Positions 16,989 to 46,645 of a DNA stretch of 64,000 nucleotides are shown piece by piece. Made by a program: the position numbers and the translations under genes. Within the stretch, counting starts at the first letter, position 1. The number at the start of each line of letters is the position of its first letter. The notes under the pieces are model-generated. The model was given only the letters and a program-made list of their open reading frames with translations, had not been told where the DNA came from and did not search any database. The stretch covers positions 372,001 to 436,000 of the forward strand of contig NC_013216.1 of the NCBI RefSeq assembly GCF_000024205.1, read 5' to 3'. This DNA comes from Desulfofarcimen acetoxidans DSM 771. Lineage in GTDB: Bacteria > Bacillota > Desulfotomaculia > Desulfotomaculales > Desulfofarciminaceae.

Positions 16989-19061
16989 TTAATTTCTAAT
17001 GTGTGTATTATAATTTTTTTCAAAGAAAAATGGGTTTATAAGATAATATCTTTCCCCGGAAGGATAGCCAAACAAAGCTTCATAATCTTTCGGACTTAAA
17101 ATTTTTTCTATCTTATCCTGAAGTGCAAGAGCAAAAGAGTTTATTTGTGATAATGCTTTTACTCCGTTCGAGATATATTCGTTACTTGAAACTAAATCGC
17201 CAATACTTTGCAAATCATTGGTGTTAGCTGCATGAGAAAGAGCAGCTGAAAATGCCATTTCCTCATCAGTTGGTCGTAAAAGCTGATCTATAACATCTCT
17301 AATATCACGAATAACAGATTCACTTACGGGTTTTAACATTTTGGAATTGCGATAATTCAACATTATTTCTACTTCTTCTAAATGAAAACTATGATGCATA
17401 ATTACTGAATCTCTGGCGGAAGTTGGCGGAGAATATTTATCATTAAGTTGAAATAACTGACTTAACAATTTATTTTCCGCAAAAATTGGTGGTGTTATTC
17501 CGCTATCCTTACAGCGCTGGATGAATTCCCCTCTCGGATCTTTCGTAACATTATCTGCTATCAAAATAATTTGTGCAATTATTAGGAATAAATTTTCGTT
17601 AGGGTACTTGTCTTTAACCATTTTATATAAAACTCCGATGAATGCATAATAATTGGCATATCTCCAATACGTCCCATAAACATCAAAAAACCACCAACTT
17701 AAATTATAACCAGCTGCACCATCCACTGTTATTCCTGAAGGCAGTAAGACACGGTTGGCTATTTGGTGACATACTCCAATTAATCCGTAGGTGATACCGG
17801 CATGAAACATAGTTATACCAGTATTGGTTGGTTTACCGTTAATAATAAGAACTAAGTTATGCTCTCGACCAGCCATAAGTGCTGCTTTAGACATATCCCC
17901 TTTACCTTTTTCAAGAAGTTTGCCTTTACAACCCGGCGGCGGTAGATAATCATAGTCATTTGTATTTGGATTGTATGTCCAACGATTTGGATTACAATAA
18001 TAATTAGGATCATTGCCACCTAAACCGCGCCAGCAACTCTTGTCAGACCCTGTTACCCAGGTATGGTCTCCTTTGATAGGAATTGGTCCGGGAATGGTCG
18101 TAGGCGCGATCCAAACCGACATCCTGTAATACTCAAGCTTCACGGGTACACCCGAGAGAACGCCTATTTTGTCTATCGAACACCCAGCACGGCCAAAGAA
18201 ACCGACTGTGTTAGCCTTTATTTCAAAAGGGTCAATTCCGTCATTACTACCAATTATATCGCTGACCCTATTTTTATTTGTTTGTAATTGGAGGCTGCGT
18301 ACACCCTTTTTATCTTTAGATAATGATCCTTTGACAGTTGTAACTACCTCATCATTATCCAGGAGAAATATATAGTAATTATCGCCCCACCGACCGGAAT
18401 GTTCTTCACCAACATACATCTTACCATTTTGATTTCTGCATTTACATCTGATATCATTTAAATCATTTCCATATTTAAATTCTATTTCTTTAAGGTGTGT
18501 AGGAACATCAGTGGGGGGGTTATCTGTAAACGGATTACCTCCATCTCCACCATATTCATGACTTTTTACAAAATCAGTAAAATACAAATATTCACTTTTG
18601 TCAACCCGAGAGTAGAAACCTATATTATCAATTCCATAACCACATCTTCCATAAAAGCCAGCTAGTCTTAGCCCATCAATTGTAAAATTATTGCCATCCG
18701 TGGCCCCTCCATAATATTTCTTTTTTTTCGGGAATAAATTTCCTTTATTTGTTGTAAATCTTATTCTATTAAGAAGTGGCCGCCACCCTGTACCAATCGT
18801 GCCTTCGATTTTACAAATGTATTCATCAGGATCTAATATTACTATCTCTTCATTTAAGCCTCCCCATTGCCCTCCACGCCTTGGTTCACTATGCTGCTTA
18901 CCTTGGATATCTTTCCATGTACACTCTATTCCATGAACATTATTATCATCATCCGTGATCTTAATTTCCCTGAGTATATAATTATTCATAATATCAGTAG
19001 GGTCGGAAAATTCACCCCCGCCTGAGGTACCGAAGCTTTTTATCTTCTCGACTGTAAACAT
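16989..19061 (-). CDS. Two jacalin-like lectin domains plus a large unassigned C-terminal domain
   Basis: 690 residues, no signal peptide, start after CGGAGGG. Residues about 5-165 and 185-325 are two jacalin-type beta-prism repeats, each ending with the characteristic LAGFYGRCGYGIDNIGFYS or TVGFFGRAGCSIDKIGVLSG. These are predicted to bind sugars. The remaining roughly 360 residues are not a lectin: TMFHAGITYGLIGVCHQIAN contains His and Cys residues in a context reminiscent of cysteine hydrolases, followed by a helical C-terminus. I do not recognise this domain. It stands alone between a terminator and decayed transporter DNA. Confidence 0.7.
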   Translation of the reverse strand: MFTVEKIKSFGTSGGGEFSDPTDIMNNYILREIKITDDDNNVHGIECTWKDIQGKQHSEPRRGGQWGGLNEEIVILDPDEYICKIEGTIGTGWRPLLNRIRFTTNKGNLFPKKKKYYGGATDGNNFTIDGLRLAGFYGRCGYGIDNIGFYSRVDKSEYLYFTDFVKSHEYGGDGGNPFTDNPPTDVPTHLKEIEFKYGNDLNDIRCKCRNQNGKMYVGEEHSGRWGDNYYIFLLDNDEVVTTVKGSLSKDKKGVRSLQLQTNKNRVSDIIGSNDGIDPFEIKANTVGFFGRAGCSIDKIGVLSGVPVKLEYYRMSVWIAPTTIPGPIPIKGDHTWVTGSDKSCWRGLGGNDPNYYCNPNRWTYNPNTNDYDYLPPPGCKGKLLEKGKGDMSKAALMAGREHNLVLIINGKPTNTGITMFHAGITYGLIGVCHQIANRVLLPSGITVDGAAGYNLSWWFFDVYGTYWRYANYYAFIGVLYKMVKDKYPNENLFLIIAQIILIADNVTKDPRGEFIQRCKDSGITPPIFAENKLLSQLFQLNDKYSPPTSARDSVIMHHSFHLEEVEIMLNYRNSKMLKPVSESVIRDIRDVIDQLLRPTDEEMAFSAALSHAANTNDLQSIGDLVSSNEYISNGVKALSQINSFALALQDKIEKILSPKDYEALFGYPSGERYYLINPFFFEKNYNTHIRN

Positions 19062-41370: not shown

Positions 41371-41712
41371 TTTCGGAACAGATCCCAGCAAAAGATCTAA
41401 GAAAGAAACCTAGCCACAACATTTTGTATCATGCTGGTTCTACCTCTTTGCCTAATCAGCTGTCAGTATTTAATAAGTATCTGACCCTCATGAATGAGAG
41501 CGATTAATTGGAATTATTTTACCGGAGCAGACCCTGGTAAAAATTTGGAAGGAACGTTTTTTCTCTTTACAAATTTTTTCGAGCAAAGCCAGGAAAAACA
41601 AGCGGAAGCGCCGGCGACTGATTTTTCGGCGGATGAGGACTGTCACATACCGGATGAGGACGAGGAAGGTTATGATTTAGAACATTAACAGGTGCAGTAG
41701 AATAATGATGGG
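41371..41712. repeat. Conjugative-element-derived repeat, copy 2 (left flank of the nitrogenase-like island)
   Basis: Nearly identical to 19849-20170, including a hairpin repeat (41510-41587) and the ORF tail QEKQAEAPATDFSADED. The same tail recurs at 46340-46446 on the far side of the island in the same orientation. Confidence 0.8.
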
Positions 41713-41854
41713 GAAGACCTGCTAACAAAAGTCAAATAGGAGTTTCAAAAAAACTGATCAGCATAAAAAGGCATAACAAAACCAGCCGCTCAGCACTTTG
41801 AAAAAATGGCGGTTGGCCAGAACAGGGTGTGAATTTTGTACATCAGCTTTCATC

Positions 41855-43147
41855 CTAATACATTAATCCGTTCAATATCAGCTCTGTCACGTGCAATGCA
41901 CCGCCGGTGCCTAGCTGGGTTTTGGGTACCACGTCGAGATAACCAAGGGTGGGCAGAGCCGTTTCAATGCCGGTGAAGACGTGCTTTTTCAGCCTGAGCT
42001 TAGAAATTGTGTTGCCGCTTGCGAAAACAAGCTCTGCGTTTGTGTTCAGAATGTCACGTTCCATAGCGTTGGTCAGTCCGAAGTCCGATAGAAGTTCTGT
42101 CAGGCGTTCTTTGAATACGCTGCTTTGCGGATTCAGAATTGAGACACACTCGGGGATCATGCCAAAGTAACGCACCAGAAAATCAACATACACATACAGC
42201 TCCGAGCAGTTTCCTTCCACCGCAAAGGAAACCCCCTTCGGCAAGCCGGTCAGTGAATTGACCCGGGAGATAAAGGCGTAGGCGCGTGCGCGGGCCTGTT
42301 CACTCTCCCGAATGGCATCCGATGCGTCCGCACCTGTCAGGTCGCAAACCTCACGCAGCAGCTTTTCTGTCGCCGCAAAGCCGATTGGCGGCCCGTCGCA
42401 TACATAAAAAGGTGTGCCGTAATGCGTCTTAAGGTATTCCGCTGTTTTCAGCCCATATTCCGGGTGAATGACAATATTGAGCGCCGCTTCCGGCATTACT
42501 GCCATGTCCGCAAGGCTTCCGCCGCCGCAAAGAACACAGCCGAGATGCAGGCCACAGAGGGAAAAGATACGCCGCAGCTCCGCCACGTCCCCGGTGTGGT
42601 TTCTGTGAAAGAGGGAAAGTCCCAGGAGATTGACACGCCGGCTGACTGTCCTGTCCGCTTTTGGCGGCGGCAGCTGCTTTAAAAGCGCCAGAGCCGCCGC
42701 CTCGTGCCCCGCGCACACGTCGCTCGAAAAGCCGGGCGTTTCCAGTACAACCACGGGCCTGTACGGTATGACGGTTTTCGCAATTCCGCAGAGGTCGTCC
42801 CCGATCAGCGCGGCACCAGGGGAGTTCACGATGCACAGCAGTTCAAAGGTGACATTGTCCCGTAAAAATGTAAGCGCCTCAATCAGCTTGTCCGCACCGC
42901 CGTAGATGTAATCGCCGTTGTCAAGATAGGTACAGGGTACGCGCGGCTGGCCGAAATACCACTTTTCCGGGTAGTTAAGCGGATCAAACTCAAATTGCCG
43001 GATTAATTGGTTGTCCGATGTCGCCGAGTGGTAGAATTTGCAGCCGGTGGGGCCGTTAAGCAGTACGACCGATCGTGCAACACCCTCCAGCGCAAACAGT
43101 GCGCCTGAAAAGCTATCAGGCGTAATATTGTTTAAATAATTGCTCAT
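41855..43147 (-). CDS. Nitrogenase component 1-like (NifK/BchB-like) subunit
   Basis: 430 residues. The N-terminus follows the component 1 plan: [20 protein letters not shown], then [20 protein letters not shown] and [12 protein letters not shown]. Of the usual three cluster cysteines only Cys36 (GPTGC) is kept: the first position is in PDSFSGAL and the third is Ser110 (VNSPG). It should therefore donate one ligand to a cluster shared with the partner encoded upstream, like the single-ligand subunits of protochlorophyllide/chlorophyllide reductases. It overlaps the fusion gene by 32 bp. The substrate is unknown. The GC content is far above the flanks. Confidence 0.82.
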
Positions 43148-45311
43148 CCTGCCGCCACGCTCCTTTCACATTGAGCTGTAAGAGCCGCGCCCAGCGCCGC
43201 GCCAGCGTAAGTCCCGATTCAAAGCCTACATTCGGGCACATGGGAATAGTGTCCGCCACCGGCACATCCTCCGCCACGGAGGAGGCATAGTTGGTCAGCA
43301 GCACATCGGGGCGGTACGCGGCGATGTCGTCCGCCCGCCTTTCGCGGTCATAGTTTTCCTCCACAGGGAGGCTGACGGAAAGCCGGGTGCGGAAGCCCTC
43401 GTCCTGTGAATAGTTGAGAACGCCGATTTTGGCAATTTCCATGCCCGCGTCCAGCGCCGTTTTCAGAATCCAGTCCAGTTCATGGTTGTATGTAATGATC
43501 ATCAGCTTTTTCCCCGACAGCTGTGGGCGCAGCGCCGCAATTTCCCGCATATACCGCTCTGTATGCTCCGCAATAATTTTTGCCGCGGCATCCGGGCGTC
43601 CAAAGAAGGCAGCTACGCCGCGCAGCCAGTCGGCTGTTTCTTCCAGGCCCACGGGAAAGGCCAGAGGGAAAAATCGGGCCCCATATTCCTTTTCAAAAAA
43701 GCCCCGCAGCGTATTTGCCGTATAGTCGCCGTATGCCGGAAGGTTCAGTGGCGCGGCGCAGAAGTTCTCCAGCGCGTTCGCCGTTGTGTTATAGAGAAAG
43801 CGGCAGTTTACACGCACGCCCATTTGGCTTAAATAGCCGTTGATCACACTGAAATTATCCTCCGTATTCGTCACAACGATTTTCTCCGCCACAATATTGA
43901 CCGTATCCGGCACAGGAGGAACATTCCGCTTAATTATGCTGCGCGCCAGCGCGATATAGCTCATGAACATACCTTGAAGATAGTCACCCGCCATATTGCC
44001 GTCGGCACGCACGGGGATGACGGGCAGTCCCGGCTCGGATAAATTCTTTACGCGGTCGATATCATCCCCGATAATACCGGCAGGGCATGAGCTGACTACG
44101 ACAATGGCGCGGGGCTTTTGCTTTTTAAGTGCCAAAAGCCTTTCCTCCAGCTTTTCTGTCCCGCCGAATACGATTTCCGGTTCACCCATTTCGGTGCATT
44201 CCAAATTTGGCATCAGGGAGGCGGGCAAAAGCGCGCCGCGCTCAAACAGCTTGCGCCGTCCGCTGGAGATGATGGTTTGGTAGGAGATGTGGGCACAGCT
44301 TTTCGGCGCGTGGGCCAGTACCAAGGCATCGCGCAGATGCACCGCCGTGGAAACCGCGCCGTTGAAGGCACAGCCATGCAGGGGCTCACCGCGAATCAGA
44401 TTTTTTGACAGATACCGGTTTTGGTCTGTCAGACCAATTTCAGCAGGCGGCGGCAGTTTCTCTACGGGCTCTGCGCCGGAATTGGCCGCTTCGGTGGGCG
44501 TTTGTTCAAGCGAAATGCCGAGTACGGTTTCCTCAAGCGCCTCATCTGTAAGCGGCTTGGCCTCATACAATGTACACCCGTCAAGCGCTGCGGCAAGCCT
44601 GTGAAAGATGGCGCAGACCTCCGCATCGGCTTCCATCTCTATAACCGTCCGGTTGGCACGTTCGGCGTGGGAAAACGCATCGCTGCGCGGAACCGTGGCA
44701 CAGATAGGTAAACCGACGGCGGCGGCAAATCGCGCGACGTGTTCGTCCTCGCCCTCCACATTGCGGCGGTTGTAGACAAGCCCGGCGACGCGCCGTTCCG
44801 TCCCATCATAATTGCGGATGCCCCGCAGAATATTGTTGGCCGCGTACAGAGCCATGAACTCCCCTGAGGTGACAATCAGGATAGTATCGGCATATTCGCG
44901 ACGGATCGGGACGGCAAAGCCGCCGCAGACCACGTCGCCCAGGACATCATACACCGTCACACCATAGCGGTCATGCAGCTTAAACTTCTCTAGTAACTCA
45001 AACGTACTGATAATGCCGCGCCCGGCGCATCCCACACCGGGCTTCGGCCCACCGGCTTCCACGCAGCCGATGCCCGCAAAGCCTTCCTCCAGAATGTCCT
45101 CCAGCCGGTATTCCAGTGGGTTAGTGATGCGCAAATAATCCAGCACGGTCGTCAGCCGCTTCCCCTGCAGAAGAAGCCGCGTGGAATCGTGTTTCGGGTC
45201 ACATCCAATCTGAAGTACCCGATGCCCCGCAAGCGCAAACGCCGCCGAGAGGTTTGCACTGATGGTCGATTTCCCGATACCGCCCTTGCCGTAAACAGCG
45301 ATTCGTTTCAT
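43116..45311 (-). CDS. NifH-NifD-like fusion: reductase plus nitrogenase-like catalytic subunit
   Basis: 731 residues from the ATG at 45311 ([16 protein letters not shown]); the frame is open for 50 more codons but that part is not NifH-like. Residues 1-265 are NifH: P-loop GKGGIGKST (8-16), CDPKHDSTR, cluster ligands Cys95 ([13 protein letters not shown]) and Cys129 ([11 protein letters not shown]). Residues about 290-731 are component 1-like with Cys314 (HGCAFNGA), Cys339 (HAPKSCAHI) and Cys409 ([13 protein letters not shown]). It would use ATP to drive electrons from its own Fe-S domain into the catalytic pair. Fusion of reductase to catalytic subunit is unusual, since these normally dissociate each cycle. 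Confidence 0.88.
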
Positions 45312-45457: not shown

Positions 45458-46192
45458 TCAAGCCTTCTTTTTTTGATAAACCGGTTCCGATACGGCTAGA
45501 GCCCTTTGCAGAAGGCCAAAGTCCGCCTTCATCAGCTCAAAGGATTCACCCGGCTTCATATAGGGCTGTACGGCTTTTGCCACAAGGGGAAAAAGCAGCC
45601 GCCGGTCGCCGTCGAAGTCAATGAGAAACAGCTTATGGTACCTTGTCTCTTTTTCCTCACGGGCCAGTAATATCCATGCGCGGTAAACCTCGGGCCGGGT
45701 TGCAAGCAGCTGCGCCAGGGCCTTTGGCAGGCCGACCGGGAAATCCGTTGTTGCGCGGATATCCAGCTTACCCTGGTGGTCGGTTCGGGCCAGTGTCATC
45801 CCCTCGGTGCCGGAATCAATTTCAGCCAGCTGGGGGTGCCGCAGTAACAGGGCCTTACCGAAAGGATTTATAACGACACCGGCAAGCTGAGCCGGATTAT
45901 CAATGACTATATGTTTCAGTGCGTCCAGCGGCAGGACGGACACCTTTTCCAACGGGAAAGTCCATTTTTGCAGCTCGTCCGCCGAGCAGAACGCGGGCAG
46001 GAACACTTCCTTTTCCGGTGTGTTCAGTGCTGCGATGCTGCCGTTTTCTCCGTGGCAGGGCACCAAAAGACGCGCGGCCTTCAGCTCCGCGAAAAAGCGC
46101 AGCTTTCCCTCCACGCTTGGATTGTCCCGCAGGCGTTCCATGCTTGTTGTCAGGTCCAGCCCGGAATCATGTTTTTGTATCCATTCCTCCAT
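45458..46192 (-). CDS. SseB-like protein (enhanced serine sensitivity family)
   Basis: 244 residues. The N-terminal SseB domain (about 10-120: [55 protein letters not shown]) and C-terminal SseB_C domain (about 150-240: [32 protein letters not shown]) are both present. The family's biochemical role is unclear. It is first in a minus-strand cluster with the nitrogenase-like genes and shares their high GC content, so it probably travelled with them. Confidence 0.8.
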
Positions 46193-46339
46193 CTAGGTCA
46201 CCTCCATGCCACCATCATATCACGGCACGCGCCCGTTAACAATGCGCTTTATCAAAGAGCATGGCCGATGCCGGAGCAATCGGCTAAAGGGTGCAGGATG
46301 TGGTGGAGGAAGCACCCGGCTACTATTTCTCCCACCTGC

Positions 46340-46645
46340 AAAGCCAGGAAAAACAAGCGGAAGCGCCGGCGACGGATTTTTCGGCGGATGAGGACGGGGA
46401 AGTTATGATTTAGATCCTTAACAGGTGCAGCAGAACAATGATGGGAAATGAGGCGTCCTGATTTGGAAGAATCGGCAAGATTGCAGATTATCTACGAAAC
46501 CGCCGTGTCCAGGGTGACAAGGACGCCGGAGGCATGGGCGGAATACCTGCGCTTTACGTTGCGGCTTTACAAATACCCTTTTGAAAACGCGCTGCTCGTA
46601 AGAATTTGGAAAGAGAAAAAAGCTATTACCAACCCAATTTGCTAA
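46340..46645 (+). pseudogene. Conjugative-element fragments, right flank of the island
   Basis: 46340-46446 repeats the ORF tail found at 19849-20170 and 41371-41712. 46448-46600 then encodes the N-terminal fragment RRPDLEESARLQIIYETAVS ... AWAEYLRFTLRLYKYPFENA. At about 46597 it changes abruptly into half of the hairpin repeat and unrelated DNA. The minus strand of 46610-46735 looks like a small piece of another gene (YKKILELLANYDSDKVKNKE). Confidence 0.65.

Follow-up and report, generated by a model that had tools for sequence, protein, structure and literature searches.

A NifH-NifD fusion gene overlaps the gene of its partner subunit

Two overlapping genes of the nitrogenase superfamily, here called HD and K, were found on the minus strand of the window, the 64,000-nucleotide stretch of Desulfofarcimen acetoxidans DSM 771 DNA analysed here (Table 1). 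HD matches Fer4_NifH at residues 3-263 (E 1.8e-92) and Oxidored_nitro at residues 314-711 (E 4.7e-77) within a single frame, and K matches Oxidored_nitro (E 6e-50). The first-pass annotation had described HD as a complete NifH joined to a component 1-like subunit, and the open reading frame, the Pfam matches, the P-loop and the five cysteines all agree with that description. The HD frame stays open upstream up to a TTG at 45461, and the ATG at 45311 fits the N-terminus of the family. The start codon of K lies inside the 3' end of HD, resulting in a 32-nt overlap that suggests translational coupling. An assembly or frameshift artefact was considered as the origin of the fusion and rejected because the identical uninterrupted frame is seen again in dozens of genomes. 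The same 4.5-Mb genome carries a separate NifH together with four NifDKEN-type genes (1045116-1052709).

Table 1. Features of the HD-K locus (window coordinates; residue numbers for protein domains)
Feature	Position	Strand	Description
HD	43116-45311	-	NifH-NifD-like fusion, 731 aa (ORF and Pfam)
HD, NifH half	residues 1-265		NifH/Fe-protein domain; P-loop 8-16, C95, C129
HD, linker	residues 270-298		predicted disordered
HD, D half	residues 312-731		component-1 alpha-like domain; C314, C339, C409
K	41855-43147	-	component-1 beta-like partner, 430 aa; lone cluster cysteine C36
SseB-like gene	45458-46192	-	carries SseB N- and C-terminal domains; shares the high-GC segment with HD and lies upstream of it
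Left flanking direct repeat	41583-41715	+	blocks of 58 nt and 52 nt
Right flanking direct repeat	46338-46448	+	98% and 87% identical to the left blocks

Structures were modelled for HD and K as single chains. The K model (pLDDT 92.6) has BchB of dark-operative protochlorophyllide reductase (DPOR) as its best structural match (Z 38.8, rmsd 3.0 over 395 residues), followed by methylthio-alkane reductase (Z 35.9) and then by NifEN and nitrogenases (Z about 32-35). The HD model consists of two well-predicted halves joined by the linker, which is of low confidence. Its NifH half matches Fe proteins (Z 34.9), and its D half matches several component-1 proteins about equally (Z 25-26), with DPOR, methylthio-alkane reductase (Mar) and Nif not separated.

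From K through the SseB-like gene the GC content is 56%, compared with 40% for the window; it changes sharply at either edge, and the step from about 0.40 to 0.56 falls between the two direct repeats. Genes of the IS21 and IS605 types are present within the window. These features are consistent with a recent horizontal gain of the window's HD-K. An SseB-like gene is also found beyond K in another HD-K locus (L027, 12748-13467). Elsewhere in the window, a 690-aa protein with jacalin-like lectin domains is encoded at 16992-19061.

HD-K is a sporadic family in which fusion is the rule

Species genomes were scanned, and the fusion, followed by K, was found in Clostridia, Lachnospiraceae, Treponema, Coriobacteriales, a Chloroflexaceae and a Myxococcota MAG, as well as in methanogenic and Bathyarchaeal archaea. 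In the window's class the K profile scored members at 575 bits or more and other paralogues at 157.5 bits or less, and two of 113 genomes were carriers. Carriers numbered 13 of 295 genomes in the phylum of Methanococcoides (matches above 270 bits), 21 of 214 in that of Methanoplasma, 3 of 221 in Chloroflexota (one of them split), and 1 of 295 and 3 of 226 in two Clostridia orders; a search of plasmids gave no K match. The fusion is the rule in this sporadic family, which spans Firmicutes, Spirochaetota, Chloroflexota, Myxococcota and methanogens. Calling it unusual, as had been done from the window alone, therefore does not hold within the family, and archaeal cases had already been reported (PMC11237513). 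There, a NifH-NifD/E fusion termed cluster 443 is fused in Methanomassiliicoccales and both fused and split in Methanosarcinales/Methanomicrobiales; the sections of that report dealing with the cluster record the fusion without function, ligands, bacterial members or gene context. Cluster 443 is apparently the archaeal part of the HD-K family. Our literature search found no functional study of this fusion.

Several Thermoplasmatota genomes (G629, G584 and G538) carry two to four K genes of the HD-K type each, which suggests substrate diversification. A Peptococcaceae MAG (L010, 7492-10828) has an extra NifH-like gene near HD-K, 45% identical to the HD H domain and preceded by two genes that gave no NCBIfam match at E 1e-8.

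Cluster ligands follow a three-plus-one cysteine pattern

The P-loop and the Fe-protein cluster cysteines C95 and C129, together with C314, C339 and C409, are invariant in 61 of 61 HD fusions, and C36 is the sole invariant cysteine of K among 63 partners. Three ligand columns per subunit were then compared in a joint D/K alignment that included Nif, NifEN, Bch, Mar and Nfl references. HD has cysteine in all three columns and K has Asp11, C36 and Pro110; the corresponding residues are Cys, Cys, Cys in BchY, Gly, Cys, Ser in BchZ and Pro, Asp, Cys in BchB. By contrast, NifD/NifK, NifE/NifN, MarD/MarK and NflD/NflK have three cysteines on both subunits, and three are also found in the K subunit of a sister system from Methanomicrobiales (MmK). 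The 3+1 pattern first read from the window is thus real and family-wide, and equal to that of BchY/BchZ, as opposed to the 3+3 pattern of Nif and Mar. That K keeps only Cys36 and has lost its other two ligand positions was also borne out; the serine that had been placed at residue 110 was not, as this residue is a proline and the serine is its neighbour, Ser109.

The column of the FeMoco ligand Cys275 of NifD holds cysteine in NifD, NifE, MarD and NflD, Tyr, Asn, Lys, Thr, Phe, Ser or Gln in nine HD members, and a residue other than cysteine in BchN, BchY and CfbD. The His442 column of NifD holds Asp in the two HD sequences inspected. In this alignment, then, neither FeMoco ligand has a counterpart in HD. 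With Asp11, C36 and Pro110 in K, HD-K lacks the nitrogenase P-cluster set of six cysteines, three per subunit, as well as the combination of P-cluster and NifB-type cofactor ligands found in Mar and NflDK. A P-cluster or NifB-type cofactor in HD-K is therefore unlikely. On the other hand, HD-K has the 3+1 cysteine set of chlorophyllide reductase (COR) in the same columns as BchY/BchZ, and EPR shows a [4Fe-4S] cluster in BchY-BchZ (PMC7242693). From the ligand pattern we infer that HD-K would hold a single [4Fe-4S] cluster between three cysteines of the HD D half and one of K.

HD-K lies outside the characterised families

Both subunits were placed in a joint D/K tree built with FastTree only, in which one BchY and one BchZ were included and the deeper backbone is weakly supported; H domains were placed in an IQ-TREE tree. 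The D domains of HD are monophyletic (0.979), and their sister group (0.999) is made up of split systems found in Methanomicrobiales and in one Chloroflexota genome. The K subunits show the same arrangement, those of HD-K grouping at 0.939 and then, at 0.897, with the K of the sister system. The H domains form one group except for that of L032 (support 73). In the joint tree, HD-D and K fall outside NifDK/EN, BchNB/YZ, Mar/NflDK and CfbD, and BchN/BchY and BchB/BchZ cluster apart from them (with one BchY and one BchZ). The first-pass annotation had named a position inside a characterised family as one result that would overturn its reading, and both proteins lie outside all those tested.

The split Methanomicrobiales systems (L046-L059) encode H, D and K separately; H is CfbC-like, and D (about 347 aa) and K (about 370 aa) are short. 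These systems resembled CfbCD, but this assignment was rejected because D and K score far below CfbD; they form a separate sister group with 3+3 cysteines, and no corrinoid cassette was found near them, apart from one weak CobD-like match. Because this sister has 3+3 cysteines, our single tree suggests that the 3+1 state of HD-K arose independently of BchYZ. Likewise, since the sister clade retains the P-cluster set, the P-cluster and cofactor ligands appear to have been lost in HD-K independently of DPOR/COR, which would bear on how nitrogenase-like enzymes switch substrates.

Corrinoid genes accompany HD-K in archaea and some bacteria

No informative neighbour and no corrinoid or tetrapyrrole gene lies beside HD-K at the window locus; horizontal gain would account for a locus without a cassette. 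At homologous loci the situation is different. In Methanococcoides vulcani (L025), one strand carries genes for a CbiZ-like protein (PF01955, E 1e-58), ChlI, ChlD, a TIM-barrel protein, BtuF, BtuC, BtuD, HD, K, CbiK and CobN (E 6e-255), with ChlD and CbiK identified by NCBIfam. CbiZ and BtuFCD accompany HD and K again in L151, L152, L160, L161 and L028, and a locus from another phylum (L168) has the order BtuFCD-CbiZ-ChlI-ChlD-HD-K with two CobN genes. CbiK immediately follows K in L025, L026 and L151. CobN lies near HD in L039, L184, L186 and L172; CbiA, CobD and CbiB in L030; CobD and CbiB in L180; CobS in L021; and hem genes in L009 and L026. A Eubacteriaceae MAG carries a second HD-K copy within BtuD-CobN-CobN-ChlID-HD-K, in which ChlI and ChlD are fused (L212, 3187-15920). 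In C. tetanomorphum and Treponema a BtuFCD-CbiZ-CobN-ChlI/D set occupies another place in the genome, and in Treponema the TIM-barrel gene is the last of this set. Sporobacter (L009), L024, L025, L153, L160 and L166 also have the TIM-barrel gene next to HD or in its vicinity. NCBIfam gave it no family name, but the His, Asp and Glu residues of AP endonuclease 2 superfamily proteins are retained; the cobamide hydrolase CbiR is a member of this superfamily (PMC7733943), so that the gene is tied to CbiR at the superfamily level.

In 13 of 30 archaeal genomes CbiZ lay no more than 10 kb from HD-K, whereas copy number and genome size predict 0.89 such genomes (p about 7e-14, a value that ignores kinship, so that the true significance is lower). 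Forty archaeal HD loci had 8 kb or more of flanking sequence; 25 of them contained at least one gene on our list of such genes, and 17 contained one other than an ABC transporter or TIM-barrel gene. By contrast, none of 11 loci of the related NflDK had any (p 0.00026), and bacterial HD loci had one in 2 of 17 cases. CobN is absent from the window genome, G011, Sporobacter (G113) and G1281; therefore, either the core does not need the chelatase or it is used in some other way by these organisms, and CobN is not an obligatory partner of HD-K.

Several further observations concern the same loci. The CobN frame in L025 (13677-17435) is broken by one in-frame TAG, possibly read as pyrrolysine, and TAG also breaks CobN matches in other methanogens. 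In Methanosarcina-like genomes, genes resembling DUF1638 proteins (L156, L157) and a corrinoid methylamine methyltransferase gene pair (L154) were seen by eye near HD.

A proposed tetrapyrrole reductase and its alternatives

The genes around relatives of HD-K indicate that its substrate is probably B12-like or a related tetrapyrrole rather than N2, and the substrate, previously called unknown, is to that extent less open, even though the window locus itself offers no such genes. Beyond the demonstrated architecture, invariant ligands, lack of P-cluster and FeMoco ligands, separate clade and gene linkage, we propose that HD-K is an ATP-driven reductase of the nitrogenase superfamily acting on a metallo-tetrapyrrole, with a corrinoid as leading substrate, a reading whose cluster type, substrate, reaction and product we infer and to which we give a probability of roughly 0.55. 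In this scheme the NifH half, presumably dimeric, would bind ATP and carry a [4Fe-4S] cluster, and would pass low-potential electrons to the single [4Fe-4S] cluster held by the three D-half cysteines and the one of K. From there they would reach a substrate in the D-K cavity, the place of FeMoco in nitrogenase, in the manner of DPOR, COR and CfbCD. In those relatives whose cassette is complete, the corrinoid would be taken up by BtuFCD and trimmed by CbiZ and the TIM-barrel hydrolase, HD-K would reduce the ring or the bound metal, and CobN-ChlI-ChlD or CbiK would insert or extract metal. A more specific and tentative version, which we regard as possible but hold with less conviction, is that HD-K is the founding nitrogenase-like corrinoid reductase, reducing ring or cobalt after cobamide import and trimming so that CobN-ChlID can remove or exchange the metal. 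If true, this would be an undescribed pathway of B12 dismantling or metal swapping in archaea and anaerobic bacteria.

The gene linkage can be read in other ways. FecCD/BtuC-type transporters also carry heme and siderophores, which counts against the corrinoid reading. Because BtuFCD-type transporters carry heme too, HD-K could instead reduce an imported porphyrin such as heme for removal of iron by a CobN-type de-chelatase, with the corrinoid-type genes handling porphyrin. The CobN homologue HmuS of Bacteroides does extract heme iron anaerobically and needs a reductant, according to the part of the report that describes it (PMC12583661), and one C. tetanomorphum binding protein weakly matches the heme protein IsdE, in addition to the hem genes of L009 and L026. 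However, the neighbouring CbiZ, CbiB, CobD, CobS, CbiK and CbiA are of corrinoid or sirohydrochlorin type, and HmuS is described there as ATP-independent, yet several cassettes contain the ATPase subunits ChlI/ChlD; we consider a porphyrin substrate unlikely. Importers and the cobamide-trimming CbiZ, which indicate salvage and not synthesis, speak likewise against HD-K making a new Ni or Co tetrapyrrole cofactor by reducing the ring once CbiK or CobN-ChlID has inserted the metal, in parallel to CfbCD and F430, and several carriers lack CobN. Such a role has a precedent in CfbCD (PMC7242693), would fit CbiK directly behind K in three loci, and recalls a CobN and NifD-like route once suggested for F430 (PMC3087415), but we rate it as improbable. 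F430 synthesis itself was rejected as the function since HD-K also occurs in bacteria, and a separate CfbD is present in four of the six methanogens tested.

The corrinoid linkage, and the methyltransferase gene pair seen by eye in L154, would also suit an ATP-driven electron donor that takes the cobalt of Co(II) corrinoid proteins or of free corrinoid to Co(I), allowing adenosylation or reactivation with the ring unchanged. Simpler reductases suffice for this step, and the D-K cavity fold would be expected to hold a small substrate, making this role quite unlikely. A C-S bond reductase resembling methylthio-alkane or isethionate reductase is suggested by the best PDB sequence match of both subunits, methylthio-alkane reductase, but its P-cluster and active-site cysteine ligands are absent, HD-K forms a separate clade and no NifB/MarB-like radical SAM gene was recognised next to it, so that we see very little chance of such an activity. 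Although the NifH domain has every catalytic motif, an alternative nitrogenase is scarcely credible, as HD-K lacks the FeMoco Cys and His and the P-cluster ligands and a separate nifHDKEN cluster exists in the same genome.

Few nitrogenase relatives have an assigned substrate, namely N2, protochlorophyllide, chlorophyllide, Ni-sirohydrochlorin, thioethers and isethionate. HD-K adds a distinct and widely scattered lineage with a covalently fused reductase, a component that normally cycles, and the gene context narrows the choice of substrate to corrinoids and related tetrapyrroles. The lineage also bears on the role of the many CobN/ChlID homologues of methanogens, and on whether anaerobes rework or demetallate B12.

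Comparison with known systems

MarHDK, IsrHDK and NflDK resemble HD-K in having H, D and K components and are its top PDB sequence matches, but Mar and Nfl retain the P-cluster and cofactor cysteines and belong to other clades. Class I (de)chelatases of the HmuS and CobN-ChlID kind are connected to HD-K through the CobN, ChlI and ChlD homologues encoded beside it in several lineages; HmuS acts on heme without ATP, and the portion of the report describing it mentions no nitrogenase-like partner (PMC12583661). CfbCD is a tetrapyrrole reductase of methanogens, and CfbC is the best NCBIfam match of the HD H domain; however, the curated cut-offs are not reached by HD-K (311 versus 402 bits for CfbC, about 30 versus 268 for CfbD), CfbD has no K partner, and a separate CfbD occurs in four of the six HD-bearing methanogens tested. 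DPOR (BchLNB) has a single shared [4Fe-4S] cluster with an Asp of BchB as the fourth ligand. Its BchB is the closest structure to the K model (Z 38.8), but K has a cysteine instead of that Asp, and L, N and B are separate genes in separate clades. In COR (BchXYZ), BchX is a separate protein, the subunits fall in other clades and, unlike COR, HD-K has no chlorophyll genes beside it; nevertheless, the two systems share three cysteines plus one in the same columns, the absence of the FeMoco cysteine and a NifH-type reductase.
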